The notes under the pieces were generated by a model. It ran no database searches and was not told where the DNA came from. It worked only from the letters and a program-made list of their open reading frames with translations. DNA of 64,000 nucleotides from NCBI RefSeq assembly GCF_001307805.1, contig NZ_CP013862.1:2418001-2482000 (forward strand), read 5' to 3'. The stretch comes from Lentibacillus amyloliquefaciens (GTDB lineage Bacteria; Bacillota; Bacilli; Bacillales; Amphibacillaceae). Both the position numbers and the translations under genes were made by a program. Within the stretch, counting starts at the first letter, position 1; the number at the start of each line of letters is the position of its first letter. Positions 538 through 43,431 of the stretch are shown here, one piece after another.

Positions 538-1338
538 GTGAATAACCATGAAATTGATTACGAACTCCACGGGGATGACATGCAATTCGTCGAAGTTGAA
601 CTCGACCCGCAGGAAACGGTGATTGCCGAGGCGGGCAGTCTTATGATGATGGATGAAGAAATCCAAATGGAAACGATATTTGGTGATGGAGCTTCCAACC
701 AGGGCAGCGGGATTATGGGAAAACTGCTCGGTGCCGGAAAACGTGTCATTACCGGGGAAAGTCTGTTTATGACCACATTCACAAATGATGGAACCGGCAA
801 AAAACACGTCTCCTTCGCTTCACCATTTCCGGGTAAAATTATGCCAATGGATTTAAGCGAGCTGAATGGCAAGCTGGTTTGCCAAAAAGATGCTTTTCTC
901 GCTGCTGCCAAAGGTGTATCGGTCGGGGTTGAATTTCAGAAAAAAGCAGGCGTCGGCTTCTTCGGCGGTGAAGGCTTTATTATGCAAAAGCTTGAAGGTG
1001 ATGGCATGGCATTTGTCCATGCCGGGGGAACCATGCATAAAAAACAACTCGCACCCGGCGAGACACTTCGGGTTGATACAGGCTGCCTCGTTGCGATGAC
1101 ACAGGATATCAATTATGATGTCGCATTTGTCGGCGGTGTCAAAACAGCTTTATTCGGTGGAGAAGGACTGTTTTTTGCAACATTGCGCGGCCCTGGTACA
1201 GTTTGGGTGCAATCACTGCCGTTCAGCCGTCTCGCCAGCAGAGTGTTTGCTTCAGCCCCTCAGGAGGGCGGTTCTGACAAAGGTGAAGGAAGCATTGCCG
1301 GCGGATTATATAACCTGTTTGGCGGTGACCGGCGCTAA
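538..1338 (+). CDS. TIGR00266 / AIM24 family protein
   Basis: A 266-residue soluble protein of the AIM24 (DUF124) family, whose fold resembles the TRAP RNA-binding protein; the bacterial role is unknown. The glycine-rich repeats typical of the family are visible ([19 protein letters not shown] mid-protein, [17 protein letters not shown] near the end), as is the acidic N-terminal segment ending in [15 protein letters not shown] at 538 is preferred because AAGGGG at 523-528 lies 9 bases upstream; the in-frame ATG at 529 would sit directly against that box. Two copies of a structured dispersed repeat begin right at the stop codon. Confidence 0.85.
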
Positions 1339-1461
1339 TAAAGTGAAACTTCATTCAGATAAATTGGTTTTTATTTCTTTAAATGATTAGATGAACAGAA
1401 TCAGGCATTAAAGGACAGTTAACCACTGTTCTCAGACGGGTTACCGTTCTTTACATGCGGG
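1338..1461 (+). repeat. Structured dispersed element, copy A
   Basis: First of two tandem copies. It starts ATAAAGTGAAAC and ends TTACATGCGGG. Hairpin I is decayed here, but the linker (GAATCAGGCATTAAAGG) and the GGACAGT...ACCGTTC hairpin II remnants remain. Compare copies at 1462, 5643, 18738 and 42667. Confidence 0.75.
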
Positions 1462-1585
1462 ATAAAGCGAAACTTTATTCAGTGGGATGCTCTTTCCCAC
1501 TGAATATTAGTAGAGCAGAATCGGACATTTAGGGACAGTTAACCGCCGTTCTCAGGCGGGTTACTGTCCTTTACATGCGGGATAA
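1462..1585 (+). repeat. Structured dispersed element, copy B (best preserved)
   Basis: A unit of about 124 bp directly abutting copy A. Hairpin I pairs ATTCAGTGGG with CCCACTGAAT (10 bp). A conserved linker (GCAGAATCGGACATTTA) follows, then hairpin II pairs GGACAGTTAACCGCC with GGCGGGTTACTGTCC, then the tail TTACATGCGGGATAA. No open reading frame is conserved, so this is a structured repeat and not a gene. Confidence 0.85.
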
Positions 1586-1641
1586 TATCGGTGTTTTTCG
1601 CACATACTATCCGCGAAGCCATTTTGATTGAGGTGGATTGT

Positions 1642-1824
1642 ATGGGAAGAGATGAACATCGCACGAATCGCAGAGGAAGAGCTCGTCTGGCACAAACGCC
1701 GCAATATGCGAAAACGGACAGCAAAGCAGTTGAGTTTTCCGAGGAATTTGGTGATCACAACGACAAAATAGCTCAAGTCAGAAGACGTGCAGCTGAAAAA
1801 CGCGTAAAAAACAATAGATCCTGA
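1642..1824 (+). CDS. yfhD: YfhD family small protein
   Basis: A 60-residue, highly charged protein resembling Bacillus YfhD. It has a basic N-terminus (GRDEHRTNRRGR), a LAQTPQ segment, and the EFSEEF...AQVRRRAAEKR C-terminal helix typical of this sporulation-associated small-protein group, whose function is unknown. ATG at 1642 is chosen because AGGTGG at 1631-1636 precedes it at good spacing; an upstream in-frame ATG at 1591 has no ribosome site and lies just beyond a repeat. A hairpin pair follows the stop. Confidence 0.75.
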   Translation: MGRDEHRTNRRGRARLAQTPQYAKTDSKAVEFSEEFGDHNDKIAQVRRRAAEKRVKNNRS

Positions 1825-1830
1825 TAAAAA

Positions 1831-1870
1831 CCCGGCTGCCACCTCGTCTTTTCAGAGGTCAGAAGCCGGG
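1831..1870. terminator. GC-rich hairpin after yfhD
   Basis: CCCGGCT (1831-1837) pairs with AGCCGGG (1864-1870), with an inner ACCTC/GAGGT pair. There is an A-run before it and no T-run after it, so it would terminate leftward rather than rightward transcription. Confidence 0.4.
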
Positions 1871-1884
1871 AAGTCAGACTTGAG

Positions 1885-1925
1885 GAAAGTGCCCCCGACC
1901 CCCTGGGGCACTTTCTTTCATTTTA
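1885..1925 (+). terminator. Terminator between yfhD and yueI
   Basis: GAAAGTGCCCC (1885-1895) pairs perfectly with GGGGCACTTTC (1905-1915), followed by TTTCATTTT. This is a rightward intrinsic terminator. Confidence 0.7.
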
Positions 1926-1999
1926 AAACCGCAATTTTGCCTAAGAGTCAGTCATCGTTTAAAATATCATATGAATACCTAAAAAAGAAGGTGGCAAGC

Positions 2000-2443
2000 A
2001 TGGCGAAAAAGAATGTTGATGACTATTTGACGGAAGGGATGTACGGATCCCGGCAAACGAAACGATCTGAACGGAAACAATTCCTGGGAACAATCAGAGA
2101 ACGCATTGTGATCGCGCTTACAAAAGGACAGGTCATGTCAGATAAAGGACTGGCACACCTCGATCAGGCAATGAAAGAAAACAAAGATGCCAAACTGTTT
2201 ATGAACGGTGATGTGTCACATAAATTTTTGAAGGAAGAAAAAGATCTGGCCAATAAATACAATATTCCTTATACAGAAGTCACCAATGAGGATGCCGATA
2301 CAGACATCGGCGCCGTCCTTGCGTATGATTATGCGATTGAGAAAGAAGATATTTTTATTGATGATAGTACAGATAACCAAACGAAAGAAAACACTGAAAC
2401 AAATGAATCCTTCTTCGGAAAAATCAAGCGATTGCTCTCATAG
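2000..2443 (+). CDS. yueI: YueI family protein (DUF1694)
   Basis: A 147-residue cytoplasmic protein resembling B. subtilis YueI. The N-terminal MYGSRQTKRSERKQFLGTIRERI, the LTKGQV segment and the KDAKLFMNGDVSH region fit DUF1694, an Rossmann-like family of unknown function. ATG at 2000 follows AAGAAGGTGG; the frame is open upstream to 1880, but that stretch is the terminator hairpin. A strong terminator follows, so it appears monocistronic. Confidence 0.8.
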   Translation: MAKKNVDDYLTEGMYGSRQTKRSERKQFLGTIRERIVIALTKGQVMSDKGLAHLDQAMKENKDAKLFMNGDVSHKFLKEEKDLANKYNIPYTEVTNEDADTDIGAVLAYDYAIEKEDIFIDDSTDNQTKENTETNESFFGKIKRLLS

Positions 2444-2480
2444 CTTGCATAATGCGTTTGACTCAACCAAATTTTTCCTT

Positions 2481-2516
2481 AATCATCACTCATTATTATG
2501 GGTGATGATTTTTTAT
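2481..2516 (+). terminator. Terminator of yueI
   Basis: AATCATCAC pairs with GTGATGATT and is followed by TTTTTATTT. Confidence 0.85.
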
Positions 2517-2633
2517 TTACATACGGCATTTATGTTATTTCAAACATAAAATCCAATGTGTTATACAAATTCCGGCGACATTAATGCGGTTTTTTGCCAT
2601 AATCAAGAAAACAACGAAAGGCAGGTGCTTGTA

Positions 2634-3515
2634 TTGCTGACTATAAACAATATTAATAAATCCTATGCTGGCAATCATGCATTGTCAAATGTCTCATTAC
2701 ACATCCCTGAAGGAATTTGTTACGGGCTTGTCGGTCCAAACGGGGCAGGTAAATCAACATTGATCAAAATTATCGCATCGGTCATTCATAATTTTGATGG
2801 GCATGTTCAGTTTTCCAATAACAAACTCCAAATCGGCTATGTCCCGCAAGAGATTTCTTTGGAGGAAACGGTAACAGCATACGATAATCTGTATTTTTTT
2901 GGCAAACTTTACGGCTTGTACGGAAAAGTATTAAATAGGCGGGCGAATCAGGTCTTATCGGAAATAGGTCTTGAGAACCGCGGAAAAGACAAGGTGCTGA
3001 CCTTCTCAGGTGGAATGAAGCGGCGATTAAATATAGGGTGTGCGCTCATGCACAAGCCTAGGCTGATCATCACGGATGAACCAACTGTTGGTATCGACCC
3101 GCAATCACGCCAGTACATTTTTCAAATGATTGAGCAGCTTAAAGCAAACGGCTGTACCATTATATATGCCAGCCACTACATGGAAGAAATCGAGCAAATA
3201 TGTGATGAAGCAGCATTTATGGATCATGGACAAATTGTGGAAAACGGCCCGGTTGAAAGTCTGCTGCAAAAATATGCTATTCCTGCTGTTTATGTTAAAG
3301 GGCAACATGGTCTCCCTGATGATATTGATCAATATGGTTCAGTCACAAGCAAAGATAATGGCTATTTAATAACAACAAGCAACCCACTTAAAGTAATGGA
3401 AAAACTGATCGATTTCAGCAGGATGAAGGATTGCAGGCTAGAGCGGCTGGAACTTTCCAAGCCGAGTCTGGAAGAGGTTTTCTTTGCATTAACAGGAACC
3501 CAACTGAGGGATTAG
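2634..3515 (+). CDS. ABC-2 type exporter, ATP-binding protein
   Basis: A 293-residue ATPase powering the membrane protein encoded next. Visible motifs are Walker A GPNGAGKS (about 34-41), signature FSGGMKRRL, Walker B LIITDEP with TVGIDPQ as D-loop, and the H-loop ASHYMEE, with the C-terminal extension usual for drug/antibiotic exporters. Start TTG at 2634 lies 7 bases after AGGTG; GTG at 2625 is possible. It leads a four-gene unit (ATPase, permease, LytTR regulator, DUF3021 protein). In related LytTR-DUF3021 loci the regulator controls its own transporter; here that is inferred from gene order. The substrate is unknown. Confidence 0.88.
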   Translation: MLTINNINKSYAGNHALSNVSLHIPEGICYGLVGPNGAGKSTLIKIIASVIHNFDGHVQFSNNKLQIGYVPQEISLEETVTAYDNLYFFGKLYGLYGKVLNRRANQVLSEIGLENRGKDKVLTFSGGMKRRLNIGCALMHKPRLIITDEPTVGIDPQSRQYIFQMIEQLKANGCTIIYASHYMEEIEQICDEAAFMDHGQIVENGPVESLLQKYAIPAVYVKGQHGLPDDIDQYGSVTSKDNGYLITTSNPLKVMEKLIDFSRMKDCRLERLELSKPSLEEVFFALTGTQLRD

Positions 3516-3539
3516 CCACCAAATAAAGGAGGATATCAG

Positions 3540-4286
3540 ATGAATGCCATTGCGAGTTTGGAATTGAAAAAAAATCTCCAGGATCGCGGCCTATTATTTT
3601 GGACGTTGATACTGCCGATTGTATTTACTGTATTATTTATTGCTGTCTTCACATCCGGGGCAGGCGAAACAGAAAGCCGGCAAGTCATTTCATCTATAGT
3701 CCCGGGGTATACAATTATGTTTGTTTTCTTTATTATGATATCAATGACAGAATCGTTTATTAAAGACCGGGACAAAGGCATGGTTGCCAGAATCGCCAGC
3801 ACACCGCTGTCACCGTATTTATATATATTGGGAAAATGGATCCCTTTCATATATATAGTGATGATACAAATTATGATATTGCTTTTATTTGGAAAAACAG
3901 TATATGATATTCCACTGGAGCAGCCGGTATATTTATTGTTTTTATCCGTACTGTTAACTTTTACGGTCACAGGAATTGGATTGGCGCTTGCTGTGATTGT
4001 CAAAACCAATAATATGGGGATTGCCTTGACACAAGTCATCGCTCTGGGCGGGGCAATGCTTGGCGGACTCTGGATGCCGGTGGACATGATGCCGGATATC
4101 CTCCAGACAATCAGCGCATTTCTACCACAGTACTGGGGACACCAGGCTTTTCAGGATGCTATGGCAGGCACGCTGCAATTTGCTGACTTTTTACAGATAT
4201 CCCTTATTCTCTCAGGATTTGGCCTGTCAGGATTTATAGCAGCCTTGTTAGGCTACCCGAACTTTTTAAAACGGGCAAAGGGATAG
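3540..4286 (+). CDS. ABC-2 type exporter, permease
   Basis: A 248-residue integral membrane protein with about six hydrophobic segments, starting with a short cytoplasmic helix (MNAIASLELKKNLQDRG) and a first membrane span LLFWTLILPIVFTVLF. The layout and the late LGGAMLGGLWMPVDMMPDILQTISAFLPQ pattern are those of ABC-2 permeases. AAAGGAGGA lies 7 bases upstream of the ATG. It is 24 bases downstream of the ATPase and would dimerise to form its transport channel. Substrate not deducible. Confidence 0.85.
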   Translation: MNAIASLELKKNLQDRGLLFWTLILPIVFTVLFIAVFTSGAGETESRQVISSIVPGYTIMFVFFIMISMTESFIKDRDKGMVARIASTPLSPYLYILGKWIPFIYIVMIQIMILLLFGKTVYDIPLEQPVYLLFLSVLLTFTVTGIGLALAVIVKTNNMGIALTQVIALGGAMLGGLWMPVDMMPDILQTISAFLPQYWGHQAFQDAMAGTLQFADFLQISLILSGFGLSGFIAALLGYPNFLKRAKG

Positions 4287-4306
4287 AGAAAACAGGGGGG
4301 TTGATG

Positions 4307-4768
4307 ATGAAAGTAAACATCGATATCGATGATAAGCACACGGAACCATCCATCTCCATTCAAACGAATGAATGGTCTGAGGAACTGGAAGAAATCGTTG
4401 CTATCATTAAACGAAAAAACCGGCAGCGGTTATTCGGGGTTGAATCCGATCAAACCGTTCTGCTTGACCCTAACAATATTGATTTTGTGTATGCTGAAAA
4501 AAGGAGAATTTTTGCGTGTATTAGTAATCGAAAAGTGGAGATACGAATGAAACTTTTTGAAGTGGAAGATATGTTAGCCCCCTATGACTTCATGCGCTTT
4601 TCCAAATCTGTAATTGGCAACCTTAATCAAATTGAGCGCTTTGAATTGTCATTTAACGGAAACCTTTGTGTTTACTTCCACTCCGGAAATAAAGAATATA
4701 TTACACGAAAATATGTGGCACCAATCAAAAACAGGTTGGCGATGGGAGGGCAGTCAGATGATCGTTGA
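4307..4768 (+). CDS. LytTR-type DNA-binding regulator
   Basis: A 153-residue protein whose C-terminal ~100 residues form a LytTR DNA-binding domain (AEKRRIFACISNRKVEIRM, then FMRFSKSVIGNLNQIERFE and the NKEYITRKYVAPIK end). There is no receiver domain, so it is a stand-alone regulator, as in LytTR/DUF3021 modules. ATG at 4307 is 6 bases after AGGGGGG; TTG 4301 and ATG 4304 lie too close to that box. It overlaps the DUF3021 gene by 11 bases, suggesting translational coupling. The DUF3021 partner is expected to modulate it at the membrane (known for such pairs, inferred here). Confidence 0.85.
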   Translation: MKVNIDIDDKHTEPSISIQTNEWSEELEEIVAIIKRKNRQRLFGVESDQTVLLDPNNIDFVYAEKRRIFACISNRKVEIRMKLFEVEDMLAPYDFMRFSKSVIGNLNQIERFELSFNGNLCVYFHSGNKEYITRKYVAPIKNRLAMGGQSDDR

Positions 4769-5171
4769 AGCAATCAGGAGAAGCTTAATGGGGATAGCTT
4801 TTGGTGGTATTATTACATTCATTGCACTTACGATTGTGAATTTTACTGATACAGATGTTTCCGTTTCGCAAATATGGATTTATATGCTCTGTTCCTTTAT
4901 TCTTGGTATCTATTTTGGTTTGGCATCGTTCATCTTTGAGGATAACGGGTGGAGTGAATTGAAAGCAACGGTCATCCACTTCATCATGTCGATTGCCGTT
5001 TACTTTATCATCGCGCTGTTTATTGCCAAATGGATTCCATTTACCTTATCAGCTATTCTATTGAGCTTCTTAGTTTTTATCGTCATTTACGTCCTGTTTT
5101 GGATCGGTTATTATCTGTATTACAAAAAAGTGGAAGAATCGATGAACACCAATCTCCGAAAAGACGACTGA
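4758..5171 (+). CDS. DUF3021 family membrane protein
   Basis: A 137-residue protein with four predicted membrane helices and a positively charged, then acidic C-terminus (YYKKVEESMNTNLRKDD). This is the DUF3021 layout and the usual partner of LytTR regulators. ATG at 4758 has GGGAGG 7 bases upstream; the upstream in-frame ATG at 4614 lies inside the LytTR gene and has no site. It probably acts as a membrane-bound sensor or anti-regulator of the LytTR protein. Confidence 0.8.
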   Translation: MIVEAIRRSLMGIAFGGIITFIALTIVNFTDTDVSVSQIWIYMLCSFILGIYFGLASFIFEDNGWSELKATVIHFIMSIAVYFIIALFIAKWIPFTLSAILLSFLVFIVIYVLFWIGYYLYYKKVEESMNTNLRKDD

Positions 5172-5243
5172 CAACTCCGGCTGCGATGATTTCGAATAAC
5201 AATTTACAGTTTTGGAATAATAAGGGCTGGAGGTGTCTCTGAT

Positions 5244-5501
5244 ATGACGCATCAATACCTTTGCCCGAATTGCAAAACAAATCGTTCCCGGTTTAACATT
5301 ATCGAACAAGTGGCAAAGTCGGTGAAATTGGACCCGCAAACCGGGGAACTATTAAATGATTATACAGAGGGCCAGCCGGAAGTTTTTCATATTACCTACT
5401 CTGGCCCGGAGTATAAAATACAATGCGGTTCATGCGGGCTGGTTGAAGATGAGCTGACCTTTGTGAAGTTTGCTGAACATGATCGCAATAGCCGGCAGTA
5501 G
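5244..5501 (+). CDS. Small zinc-ribbon protein
   Basis: An 85-residue protein with two CxxC knuckles, CPNC at residues 7-10 and CGSC at 61-64, fitting a four-cysteine zinc ribbon. The middle is polar with no membrane segment. GGAGGTG precedes the ATG. It stands alone, with its own terminator after the stop. I do not recognise a named family; a nucleic-acid-binding or metal-storage role would be a guess. Confidence 0.7.
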
Positions 5502-5542
5502 TGTCATATGCGATATATCGTTATAACACATTGCATCAAATG

Positions 5543-5575
5543 CGCTTCGGGTAATACTCATATCGGAGCGTTTTT
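5543..5575 (+). terminator. Terminator after the zinc-ribbon gene
   Basis: CGCTTCG (5543-5549) pairs with CGGAGCG (5564-5570, one G-T pair) and is followed by TTTTT. Confidence 0.6.
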
Positions 5576-5642
5576 GTACGTACGGATTACACTCTGACAG
5601 CGTAACCCACAAAATCATTTTCCGGATTCTCATCGCTTGCAC

Positions 5643-5893
5643 ATAAAGTGAATCTTCAATCAGTGGGGGTTTTCTTTCCCCTCTGATTGTTAGATGAACG
5701 AATCGGACATTTACTGGCAATTGAACCCCCTCCTAAGCTTCATCGTATACGCGCACATTTGAGGTGAAGGTCTTACTCCCATGAAAATCCACTGTTAGTT
5801 AGCACGAAAAATGTCCAGTATAGACAATATAAAACCATTTTCATCCTAATTGGTGAATCTTTGATTCATGGATGGCTGCCAGTTACATGTGGG
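5643..5893 (+). repeat. Structured dispersed element, copy D (long variant)
   Basis: About 251 bp, starting ATAAAGTGAATC and ending TTACATGTGGG. Hairpin I pairs AATCAG..GGGG with CCCC..CTGATT. The linker ATGAACGAATCGGACATTTA is the same as in copy E. The second half is expanded by about 100 bp relative to copy E and its hairpin II is partly degraded. The rest of the 5502-6131 spacer holds a terminator and AT-rich sequence with no other gene. Confidence 0.75.
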
Positions 5894-6131
5894 ATAATAC
5901 GTATGTCCCAAATTAAAAATATAATGCAAAAAATTCTTGGATATAACATAATTATTTGATTTTGCATTCCTTTAACAATAAATTCTATTGACAATATCTT
6001 TTATAATTATGATTTCGTCTCACAAACGGCATTTTTCTTTGGTTTAATTCCGCTTAATTTAAAGTTGCGCCCTGTAATATAGCGTGATATAGTTTAAACA
6101 AGTTTCACCGCAATAAGAGGAGGTGAGAAAA

Positions 6132-14746: not shown

Positions 14747-14773
14747 TAGAATGAATAAAACAATATTTTATAA

Positions 14774-14876
14774 CTACTAGGGGTGCCCAAAAAACGCGGG
14801 CTGAGAGGAAAGGCGTCTACAAGCTTTCCGACTCTTACGGACCTGATCTGGCTAACACCAGCGTAGGGAAGTAGTC
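14774..14876 (+). ncRNA. TPP riboswitch (THI element)
   Basis: All conserved blocks of the thiamine pyrophosphate aptamer are present in order: GGGGTGCC, GGCTGAGA, the variable P3 arm, GACCTGATCTGG, then AACACCAGCGTAGGGAAGT. It precedes thiW-thiD-thiM-thiE and is followed by an intrinsic terminator, so binding of TPP would stop transcription before thiW. Confidence 0.96.
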
Positions 14877-14907
14877 TGACAGCAATTTTGATATCAGCTA
14901 TTTCAGG

Positions 14908-18691: not shown

Positions 18692-18726
18692 TAGGGGATG
18701 ACTGAAATTAAATCCGTATTAGTGTT

Positions 18727-19053
18727 TGTTCAAAAAGGAGGATAAAGTGAAGCTTCATTCAGCGGAATGATTTTTTCCGTTGAATGTTAATTGAACAGAA
18801 TCGGGCATTTATGGTCAGTTAGCCGCCGTTGTTTGGCGGGTTACTGATTCATTATATGCGGAAAAAAAAGACCGAGAAGTTCGAGGCGGCGCAGTTTCGA
18901 GCAGTGGAATGTATGCCTATAGATACATGAGCACAAGGAATGCTTCCCTGAATCCGCATCGCAAGCGAGCATTAGTAGTTTTCTTTTCCAAGGAGCGGAG
19001 AAACCAGCCAACTAGAAACACCGACGTGTCATTGTTACCGAACTTTTTGAACA
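18727..19053. mobile_element. TIR element (copy G2) interrupted by another repeat
   Basis: The ends are TGTTCAAAAAG (18727-18737) and its exact complement CTTTTTGAACA (19043-19053). Inside, GACCGAGAAGTTCGAGGCGGCG and, near the right end, GAAACACCGACGTGTCATT are shared with the copy at 33751. Eleven bases from the left end it is split by a copy of the structured dispersed element (18738-18864). No protein is encoded. MITE-like by structure. Confidence 0.75.
18738..18864 (+). repeat. Structured dispersed element, copy C (nested)
   Basis: About 127 bp. Hairpin I pairs ATTCAGCGGAA with TTCCGTTGAAT; linker CAGAATCGGGCATTTA; hairpin II pairs GGTCAGTTAGCCGCC with GGCGGGTTACTGATT. AAAAAG occurs on both flanks (18732-18737 and 18865-18870), as expected of a target-site duplication made on insertion into the surrounding TIR element. 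Confidence 0.8.
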
Positions 19054-26812: not shown

Positions 26813-26840
26813 ATAAAGTGAATTTTCAATCAGTGGGGGT
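26813..26840 (+). repeat. Structured dispersed element, fragment F
   Basis: Only the 5' part remains: ATAAAGTGAATTTTC then AATCAGTGGGGGT, identical in pattern to copies D and E, then unrelated sequence. It lies just upstream of the GNAT gene. Confidence 0.6.
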
Positions 26841-42666: not shown

Positions 42667-42813
42667 ATAAAGTGAATCTTCAATCAGTGGGGGTTTTTTC
42701 CACTGATTGTTAGATGAACGAATCGGGCATTTACTGGCAGTTGATCCCCCACCTAATCCCCATCGTTTACTCGAACACTGGAGGTGGGGGTCTTACTGCT
42801 AGTAATATGCGGG
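42667..42813 (+). repeat. Structured dispersed element, copy E
   Basis: 147 bp, lying against the direction of the surrounding operon. Hairpin I pairs AATCAGTGG with CCACTGATT. The linker is GATGAACGAATCGGGCATTT. Hairpin II is a long stem, ACTGGCAGTTGATCCCCCAC against GTGGGGGTCTTACTGCTAGT. It ends ATATGCGGG. The TetR stop codon lies inside it. Confidence 0.85.
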
Positions 42814-43431
42814 ATAAAAACTTTTCTTCAAAATGTCCAGATATTCATAAAATTCCTGCAAATAGGGCTCAAAATCGATATTAGCCAATTGGTGATCTTT
42901 CAAGCTGCTTATGATGTCATTCTGATATCCATCCATTGACCATTGAATCAGCTTAAACACTTTATCAACATCAACATCATGCCTGAAAAGGGACTTATCG
43001 ATATTCTCATACATTATGGCATGCCCTTCTTTCAGCAATTGCTGGTATTCTTGTTCAAGATGGGACGGCAGATCAGGGCTGCTTGCCAGAAAAAACGTTC
43101 CAAGGAAATTAAACACATTCGGATTTTCGGCAAAGCATATCATTTTTATCTGCGCTGCCTGTCTCATCCGTTCTATAAAGTCCGTTTCCTGCATGTCGAT
43201 TAAATTGATATATTGATGGCGTACGATTTTTAGCGAATCTTCAACCAAATAATAATACAAGTCTTGTTTACTTTGAAAATAATAAAACAGCATGCCTTTT
43301 CCGATTCCGGCACTTTTGACAATTTGATTGGTGGAAGCCCGCTCATAGCCGTTTGCGGCGAATTCCTGAAGCGCTGCGTCCATAATTCGCTGTTGCTTAT
43401 TTTCATCAAGGTTTAGAAACTTTTCTGTGAT
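42799..43431 (-). CDS. TetR-family repressor (apparent ATC start)
   Basis: A regulator of 210 residues if started at ATC 43431, or 194 from ATG 43383. The TetR helix-turn-helix is FAANGYERASTNQIVKSAGIGKGMLFYYFQSKQDLYYYL. Upstream of ATG 43383 the frame reads TEKFLNLDENKQQRI, the usual N-terminus of this family, and AAGGGGTGA lies 6 bases before ATC 43429-43431; no ATG/GTG/TTG lies in frame and no site precedes ATG 43383. Its last four residues (PAYY) and stop come from repeat copy E. It precedes and probably represses the ABC exporter. Confidence 0.85.
   Translation of the reverse strand: MTEKFLNLDENKQQRIMDAALQEFAANGYERASTNQIVKSAGIGKGMLFYYFQSKQDLYYYLVEDSLKIVRHQYINLIDMQETDFIERMRQAAQIKMICFAENPNVFNFLGTFFLASSPDLPSHLEQEYQQLLKEGHAIMYENIDKSLFRHDVDVDKVFKLIQWSMDGYQNDIISSLKDHQLANIDFEPYLQEFYEYLDILKKSFYPAYY

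Follow-up and report, generated by a model that had tools for sequence, protein, structure and literature searches.

A dispersed two-hairpin repeat of Lentibacillus amyloliquefaciens, probably a non-autonomous DNA element moved in single-stranded form

We analysed a window of 64 kb (contig 1, positions 2418001-2482000) from the 3.86-Mb genome of Lentibacillus amyloliquefaciens, called the host below. The window carries five long copies (A to E) and one left-end fragment of a short element with two hairpins, all on the + strand, and the host genome gives at least 150 covariance-model matches to this element. We consider it fairly probable that these repeats are a non-autonomous mobile DNA element, moved as single-stranded DNA by an IS200/IS605-like reaction during replication. 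A sequence-only reading of the window had preferred a mobile or transposase-recognised hairpin to a cis-regulator. This preference is supported by empty insertion sites, junction sequences, orientation by replichore and the parity of G-T and A-C mispairs. Mobilisation by a particular transposase is putative.

The covariance model was built from 39 copies of the host's own genome (alignment A1), of which three are from the window and so are bound to match. Rows were left out for 19 of 102 copies without a recognised end and for 4 of 45 alpha-length copies that were odd, and A1 further lacks two tandem neighbours, L045+1118 and L074-1014, from the 41 then left. In the window, the model matches 1338-1461, 1462-1586, 5643-5759, 18742-18867, and 42667-42816, all on the + strand with E values of 3.6e-13 or lower. 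The next-best match, at E 9e-4, falls on the opposite strand of copies A and B. The five long copies and the fragment reported from sequence are real, the fragment at 26813 being a left end. The copy placed at 18738 also exists, but it begins at 18742. The common linker GAATCGG(A/G)CATTTA is exact in four of the five long copies (copy A has two mismatches), whereas the tail TACATGCGGG, also reported as common, is exact in only two. Six linkers with up to 2 mismatches were seen in the 64 kb against 1.4 expected, which is weak evidence by itself. Genome-wide, the linker occurs 147 times with up to 1 mismatch (76 forward, 71 reverse) against 1 for the reversed control (1 and 0); the tail has 113 occurrences (control 0) and the left end 152 (control 1). 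Copies at separate loci are up to 96% identical, and their flanks are about 50% alike.

Each copy follows the plan (A)TAAA - hairpin I - AGAAT - hairpin II - GATAAA. The long imperfect hairpins, defined by RNAalifold and pair counts, extend from GTGAAACT to AGTTGAAC and from CGGRCATTTA to TTACATGCGG, with one hairpin toward each element end as in IS200/IS605. Terminal inverted repeats are absent, and the ends read inward as ATAAAGTGAAAC and TTTATCCCGCATGT. The 5' string CCCGCATGTAA is conserved, exactly so in 96 of 149 copies. There are two subtypes, alpha of about 120 bp and beta of about 157 bp. The left-right combinations in 83 complete copies are alpha-alpha (30), beta-beta (30), beta-alpha (9), and alpha-beta (1), with one side unclassed in 13; the left and right subtypes are linked, not strictly. 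Tandem units have a single ATAAA common to neighbours, as at 1462-1466, where the 3' ATAAA of copy A doubles as the 5' end of copy B. The coordinates of the window copies are given in Table 1.

Table 1. Copies of the element in the window and the parts of copies B and E
Feature	Position	Strand	Description
Copy A	1338..1466	+	First unit of tandem pair; hairpin I decayed; E 2.4e-19; fold z-score -2.4
Copy B	1462..1586	+	Alpha form of about 120 bp, ATAAA-hairpin I-linker-hairpin II-GGGATAA; 143.6 bits; fold z-score -6.1
Copy B, hairpin I with foot	1467..1516	+	From consensus structure, pair counts, and folding
Copy B, conserved linker GAATCGGACATTTA	1518..1531	+	In the consensus structure, part of it is paired with the tail
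Copy B, hairpin II	1522..1581	+	Includes the conserved foot CGGACATTTA / TTACATGCGG
Copy C	5643..5898	+	Beta left half; hairpin II enlarged by an extra insert; tail TACATGTGGGATAAT
Copy D	18742..18867	+	Alpha form; divergent open reading frames on either side; fold z-score -4.8
Fragment	26813..26839	+	Only the left end with the 5' arm of hairpin I
Copy E	42667..42818	+	Beta form; between TetR-type and ABC-ATPase genes, opposite to their direction; fold z-score -7.5
Copy E, linker	42720..42733	+	Linker pattern

The hairpins had been described as varying in sequence while keeping their pairing, and the alignment confirms this. In A1, 95.6% of cells pair, compared with 31-41% in slid controls, and 17 of 35 pairs changed on both sides. 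None of 500 shuffles, which keep kinship in, had as many such pairs or reached any of the five covariation measures; the covariation thus exceeds both the shuffles and the slid controls. For example, the foot of hairpin I is AACT/AGTT in one subtype and ATCT/AGAT in the other (columns 11/57: AU 28, UA 8). Hairpin I shows compensatory changes across the copies, as claimed, but that of copy A has decayed. Copies B and E fold well from either DNA strand.

Empty sites were sought for 12 of the 65 solitary copies in the host genome, chosen by the length of open reading frames (ORFs) in the flanks, by comparing their joined flanks with 12 genomes of the genus (host included). Eight of the 12 gave a junction-spanning alignment. 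Three (copy E, L057, and L037) were read at base level, and the others were gapped or ambiguous. The site of copy E is empty in G136 and G115, where the flanks are joined with a single ATAAAA, and an apparent remnant of the tail is left in G038. The site of L057 is empty in G108. For L037, G101 and G129 have the empty site, with TAAC as target. The host copy L037 has TAAA at the left end and TCAC at the right, and a remnant in G136 has TAAC on the right.

Junctions were compared in 149 of 239 copies from several species, the 90 tandem-like copies being set aside. TAAA is present at 138 of 149 left junctions and 114 of 149 right junctions. When only one junction deviates, it is the left in 8 cases and the right in 32 (p = 2e-4), which disfavours a faithful target duplication. 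The base before the left TAAA is T in L055 and C in L057, and the right end, GGGA, has A at this place. From these sequences, the left TAAA looks element-borne and the right TAAA target-derived. Insertion would therefore be at A^TAAA (TTTA^T on the other strand) without true duplication; since TAAA is common to target and element, the absence of duplication is an inference only.

The orientation of the copies depends on the replichore. With tandems collapsed, the host counts are 48+/28- versus 19+/45- for its two replichores (140 copies, p = 9e-5). The bias is also found in a genome of another family (G381, 38 collapsed copies, 16+/2- vs 1+/19-, p = 1.5e-7) and in one of the same genus (G136, 68 copies, 17+/15- vs 10+/26-, p = 0.047). 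Copies lying in both orientations to genes had been reported from the window. Their relation to genes does differ, but all window copies are on the same strand. For 78 host copies, the adjacent ORFs, called greedily rather than taken from annotated genes, are co-directional in 44 cases, convergent in 17, and divergent in 17, and no copy falls within a called ORF with a length of at least 60 aa. Copies opposing the leading direction make up 25 of 34 in convergent or divergent spacers (p = 0.009), 21 of 30 between leading-strand ORFs, and 8 of 14 between head-on ORFs. The bias thus keeps its direction whichever way the genes point, and we rejected gene orientation as its source for the host genome, the only one so analysed. 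The replichore-dependent orientation implies that the lagging-strand template exposes the strand with TTTA on its 5' side. On that strand, the copy reads as an insertion 3' of TTTA, which agrees in polarity and in its coupling to replication with the accounts of IS608 and ISDra2 (PMC5371812 and PMC7290912). PMC5371812 describes both as preferring the lagging-strand template, with orientation in the family tracking replication, although a Halanaerobium study found no strand preference, with 10 of 22 on the leading strand (PMC7290912). The orientation of the element would serve as a natural record of the sites at which replication exposes single-stranded DNA.

In the proposed mechanism, the element would move by a 'peel and paste' of single-stranded DNA, IS200/IS605-like and coupled to replication. 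Read on the complementary strand, the layout would be host TTTA, TCCCGCATGTAA - hairpin II - TAAATGYCCGATTC - hairpin I - GAAGTTTCAC - TTTA, host. In this layout, each of the two imperfect hairpins would stand at the place of a transposase-binding end. The upstream TTTA would be target sequence, and the one downstream would be part of the element. The folded form is likely the single-stranded DNA within the lagging-strand template. Cleavage may occur at TTTA^T. A Y1 (HUH) transposase may act in trans, now or before its loss from the host genome.

The sequence of beta hairpin II is consistent with this kinship. On the complementary strand, it contains AAGACCCCCACCTCAA..TTAGGTGGGGG. IS605-type loci of related hosts have the left-end hairpin AAG.C.CCC.CTTCAA, which is near AAGACCCCCACCTCAA of beta hairpin II and has the same polarity. 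At a TnpB-only locus of the host (L090), AAGACCCCCACTTCAA..AAGTGGGGG lies ahead of the gene and follows TTTAA. A related motif with a hairpin was found at 9 of 60 Y1 loci, in 8 of these some 170 bases ahead of the Y1 match, and at 0 of 38 random 6-kb stretches. Seven of eight IS605-type left ends follow TTTAA, and one (L287) follows TTTAT. The right ends of IS605-type loci read AAGTGG..GTAGTTCA in 4 of 14 loci, and the element ends in GAAGTTTCAC-TTTA. The copies could instead have been decayed parts of a known coding insertion sequence. None was found as a source, though the hairpin II of one subtype is similar to the left ends of IS605.

Several observations weigh against an IS200/IS605-like origin. 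The motif was spotted by eye and the test pattern was derived from it, it is in hairpin form at only 20 of 89 element loci of the host, and alpha hairpin II does not have it. Both hairpins are mostly preceded by TAA (GTAA, CTAA), and by eye they show only part of the guide pairing of IS608, in which a tetranucleotide 5' of each hairpin is complementary to the cleavage site (a rule deduced from PMC5934647). The orientation bias in G136 is marginal, and origins and termini rest on sparse GC skew (for the host, an origin at about 2.7 Mb and a terminus at about 0.9 Mb, from the fetched loci). The L037 site in G133 lacks both the element and TAAA. The host genome has no Y1_Tnp match. Of the 92 element-bearing genomes of the family, 13 have no Y1 gene, and 7 of these have at least 10 element matches. 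The covariance model places the element at only 1 of 60 Y1 loci, where it is truncated. Finally, a gene-carrying parent was not found among the listed left ends (100 of 152) and tails (100 of 113).

We also inspected the candidates for the mover. The host has three TnpB genes (G000:C1:3071147, 9459, and 3856347) and a fragment, and tnpA was undetected. These TnpB genes were rejected as parents of the element, as their ends differ and have no close match to the element ends. Two of them have equal scores and lie near opposite ends of the contig. Y1 genes occur in 110 of 146 family genomes. They are present in 79 of 92 element-bearing and 31 of 54 element-free genomes (p = 2.6e-4, kinship uncorrected). 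At one Y1 gene (L289), a diverged long form of the element missed by the model was seen by eye. Our conclusion is that the mover works, or once worked, in trans. Which agent moves the element in a genome without an obvious transposase is the question raised by these results.

A repeat like bcr1 of the Bacillus cereus group, spread by site-specific recombination at ATAAA/TTTAT without any link to Y1, is a rather unlikely explanation. The recombinase would be of the tyrosine or integron-like type and would act on a folded hairpin. ATAAA at both ends, its being common to tandem units, and the undetected host Y1 gene would all suit such a reaction. However, a recombinase of double-stranded DNA does not predict the orientation bias or the IS605-like hairpin II, and no recombinase is linked to the copies, none having been searched for. 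It is likewise doubtful that the repeats are a mobile element of the Bacillus order that moves as single-stranded DNA, coupled to replication, but uses a non-Y1 enzyme or host proteins and captures modules, with part of Bacillaceae-1 (see below) as cargo. We considered a non-Y1 mover because at least 150 copies are present in a genome without a detectable Y1 gene.

A domesticated Y1 protein of a longer type, with its gene elsewhere on the chromosome, appears an improbable agent of dispersal; the parallel would be the REP (repetitive extragenic palindromic) sequences and REPINs moved by RAYT (REP-associated tyrosine transposase) proteins. All 20 of the chosen element-rich genomes have Y1 matches, those of G165 and G246 being weak and partial only, and the sole matches in G381, G314, G210, and G231 are low-scoring, in open frames of 178-268 aa. 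These frames would agree with such a protein. The host without Y1 and the near absence of modelled elements from Y1 loci do not, and the conserved 5' string is CCCGCATGTAA rather than GTAG. It is very improbable that the repeat is a classical miniature inverted-repeat transposable element, for which a DDE transposase would duplicate 4-5 bp of target (TAAA or ATAAA): the 4-mers on both sides are identical in 107 of 149 copies, but terminal inverted repeats are absent, deviating flanks match on both sides in one case only (L186), and right ends deviate more than left ends.

We regard a dispersed structured RNA (a small RNA or untranslated-region element) retained for regulation as no more credible, in spite of the strong covariation and the Bacillaceae-1 RNA within long variants. 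A selected + strand RNA should tolerate G-U over A-C mispairs. The mispairs are 42 G-T and 31 A-C (p = 0.24), with 15 pairs showing G-T and 19 showing A-C; these roughly equal counts give no sign of an RNA on one strand or the other, although decay after insertion would likewise level them. In addition, copies lie in co-directional, convergent, and divergent spacers alike, and their sites are empty in sister genomes. Movement as single-stranded DNA by an IS200/IS605-like reaction is the explanation we prefer.

Long variants of the element carry the Rfam family RF01690 (Bacillaceae-1) between hairpin I and the linker. We scanned 38 loci, 20 picked as long-looking and 18 not, and obtained 13 RF01690 matches; as these loci were selected, the share for the whole family is not derivable from them. 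Nine matches are preceded by the left end and followed by the linker, one has the left end only (L360), two are inverted within the element (L289, L142), and one is alone (L174). In viral contigs, the Bacillaceae-1 core alone gave nine matches, of which one alone, judged by eye, reads as Bacillaceae-1, and it lies inside a complete element (L414). The consulted part of PMC4333381 describes the reverse complement of Bacillaceae-1 as matching CsrA-binding motifs, with the strand uncertain. We take the Bacillaceae-1 strand with CsrA-type motifs to be the presumed transposed strand. The presence of Bacillaceae-1 copies inside a mobile element bears on the nature of an RNA filed as a free non-coding RNA of unknown function. 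Separately, a Bacillaceae-1-like sequence stands directly 5' of the 16S rRNA start in Bacillus safensis NZ_CP154910.1 (L417, 401-470), where the element is absent. This small 'plasmid' record seemingly holds rRNA operon sequence.

Relatives of the element are present in at least 92 of 146 genomes of the family and at least 93 of 299 of the order. These are lower bounds, as 24 candidates per genome were scored in the family and 11 in the order. Lentibacillus, Virgibacillus, Oceanobacillus, Ornithinibacillus, Cerasibacillus, Siminovitchia, and Neobacillus are named carriers among the matches listed, and the chromosome of Lentibacillus sp. CBA3610 also has the element. Partial or weak matches were found on plasmids of Pseudalkalibacillus and Peribacillus and in one Klebsiella record. 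The latter, Klebsiella grimontii plasmid pNY3A (CP079755.1; L420, 300-395), holds a recognisable copy with a shortened hairpin II, indicating either transfer or a mislabelled or contaminating sequence. The element was unmatched in the phages searched, and an exact-pattern search of viral contigs found none. In Rfam release 15, no window copy reached the gathering score. Matches below threshold to IS128 and mcrA (window 1300-5950) and to miRNA and manganese families were taken as chance. In the open-licence literature, no paper was found with the exact strings of the element or describing it. Among small mobile elements in the halophilic and soil relatives of Bacillus, it would be one of the more common.

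Some copies have further peculiarities. Hairpin II contains an insert in copy C (window 5760-5898), L016, L044, L065, and L076. These inserts are mutually related, with pieces such as CATGAAAATCC and CCTAATTGGTGAATCTTTGATTCATG that are inverted in L016, and look as if a second module had been captured. In Virgibacillus proomii (L143, L144, L192, and L202), the segment from hairpin I to the linker is expanded by repeated GAAAAAG..CACTTTTTCTNCGTGCGATG-like units. Copy D (window 18720-18741 and 18870-18892), L019, L023, L077, and L361 have one or both of the flanks GTTCAAAAAGG... and GACCGAGAAGTTCGAGG... in common, and so they are seemingly nested in, or co-amplified with, another repeat. Apart from the element, the window has a TPP riboswitch (RF00059, 68 bits) at 14769-14886.

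The element can be compared with several known systems. Like REP/REPIN sequences and their RAYT proteins, it forms dispersed intergenic palindromes supposedly moved in trans by a Y1 protein. Unlike them, it is much longer, has two dissimilar hairpins, and shows no GTAG tag; the consulted part of PMC8266576 gives REPs as 20-50 nt, most often with GTAG in front. The closest described repeat in anatomy is bcr1, which has a size of about 155 bp. Both are short, high-copy, intergenic, and mobile-looking, with TTTAT at the ends. The available portion of PMC6542083 associates bcr1 with TTTAT and restricts it to the B. cereus group, whereas the element spans many genera of the order; this comparison is by description, not by sequence. 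The Bacillaceae-1 family differs in its relation to the element, since it occurs inside long variants, is absent from the window copies, and has related sequence also outside the element. Unlike IS200/IS605, the element is geneless, with no Y1 transposase (tnpA) as encoded by the autonomous members, apparently uses TTTA at both ends, and may have a Bacillaceae-1 module inside. Like IS200/IS605 and their PATE-like (palindrome-associated) derivatives, it has no terminal inverted repeats and no evident target duplication, a hairpin toward each end, insertion on the 3' side of a short, T-rich target, an orientation that follows replication, and, in the beta subtype, a hairpin II resembling the left-end hairpins.
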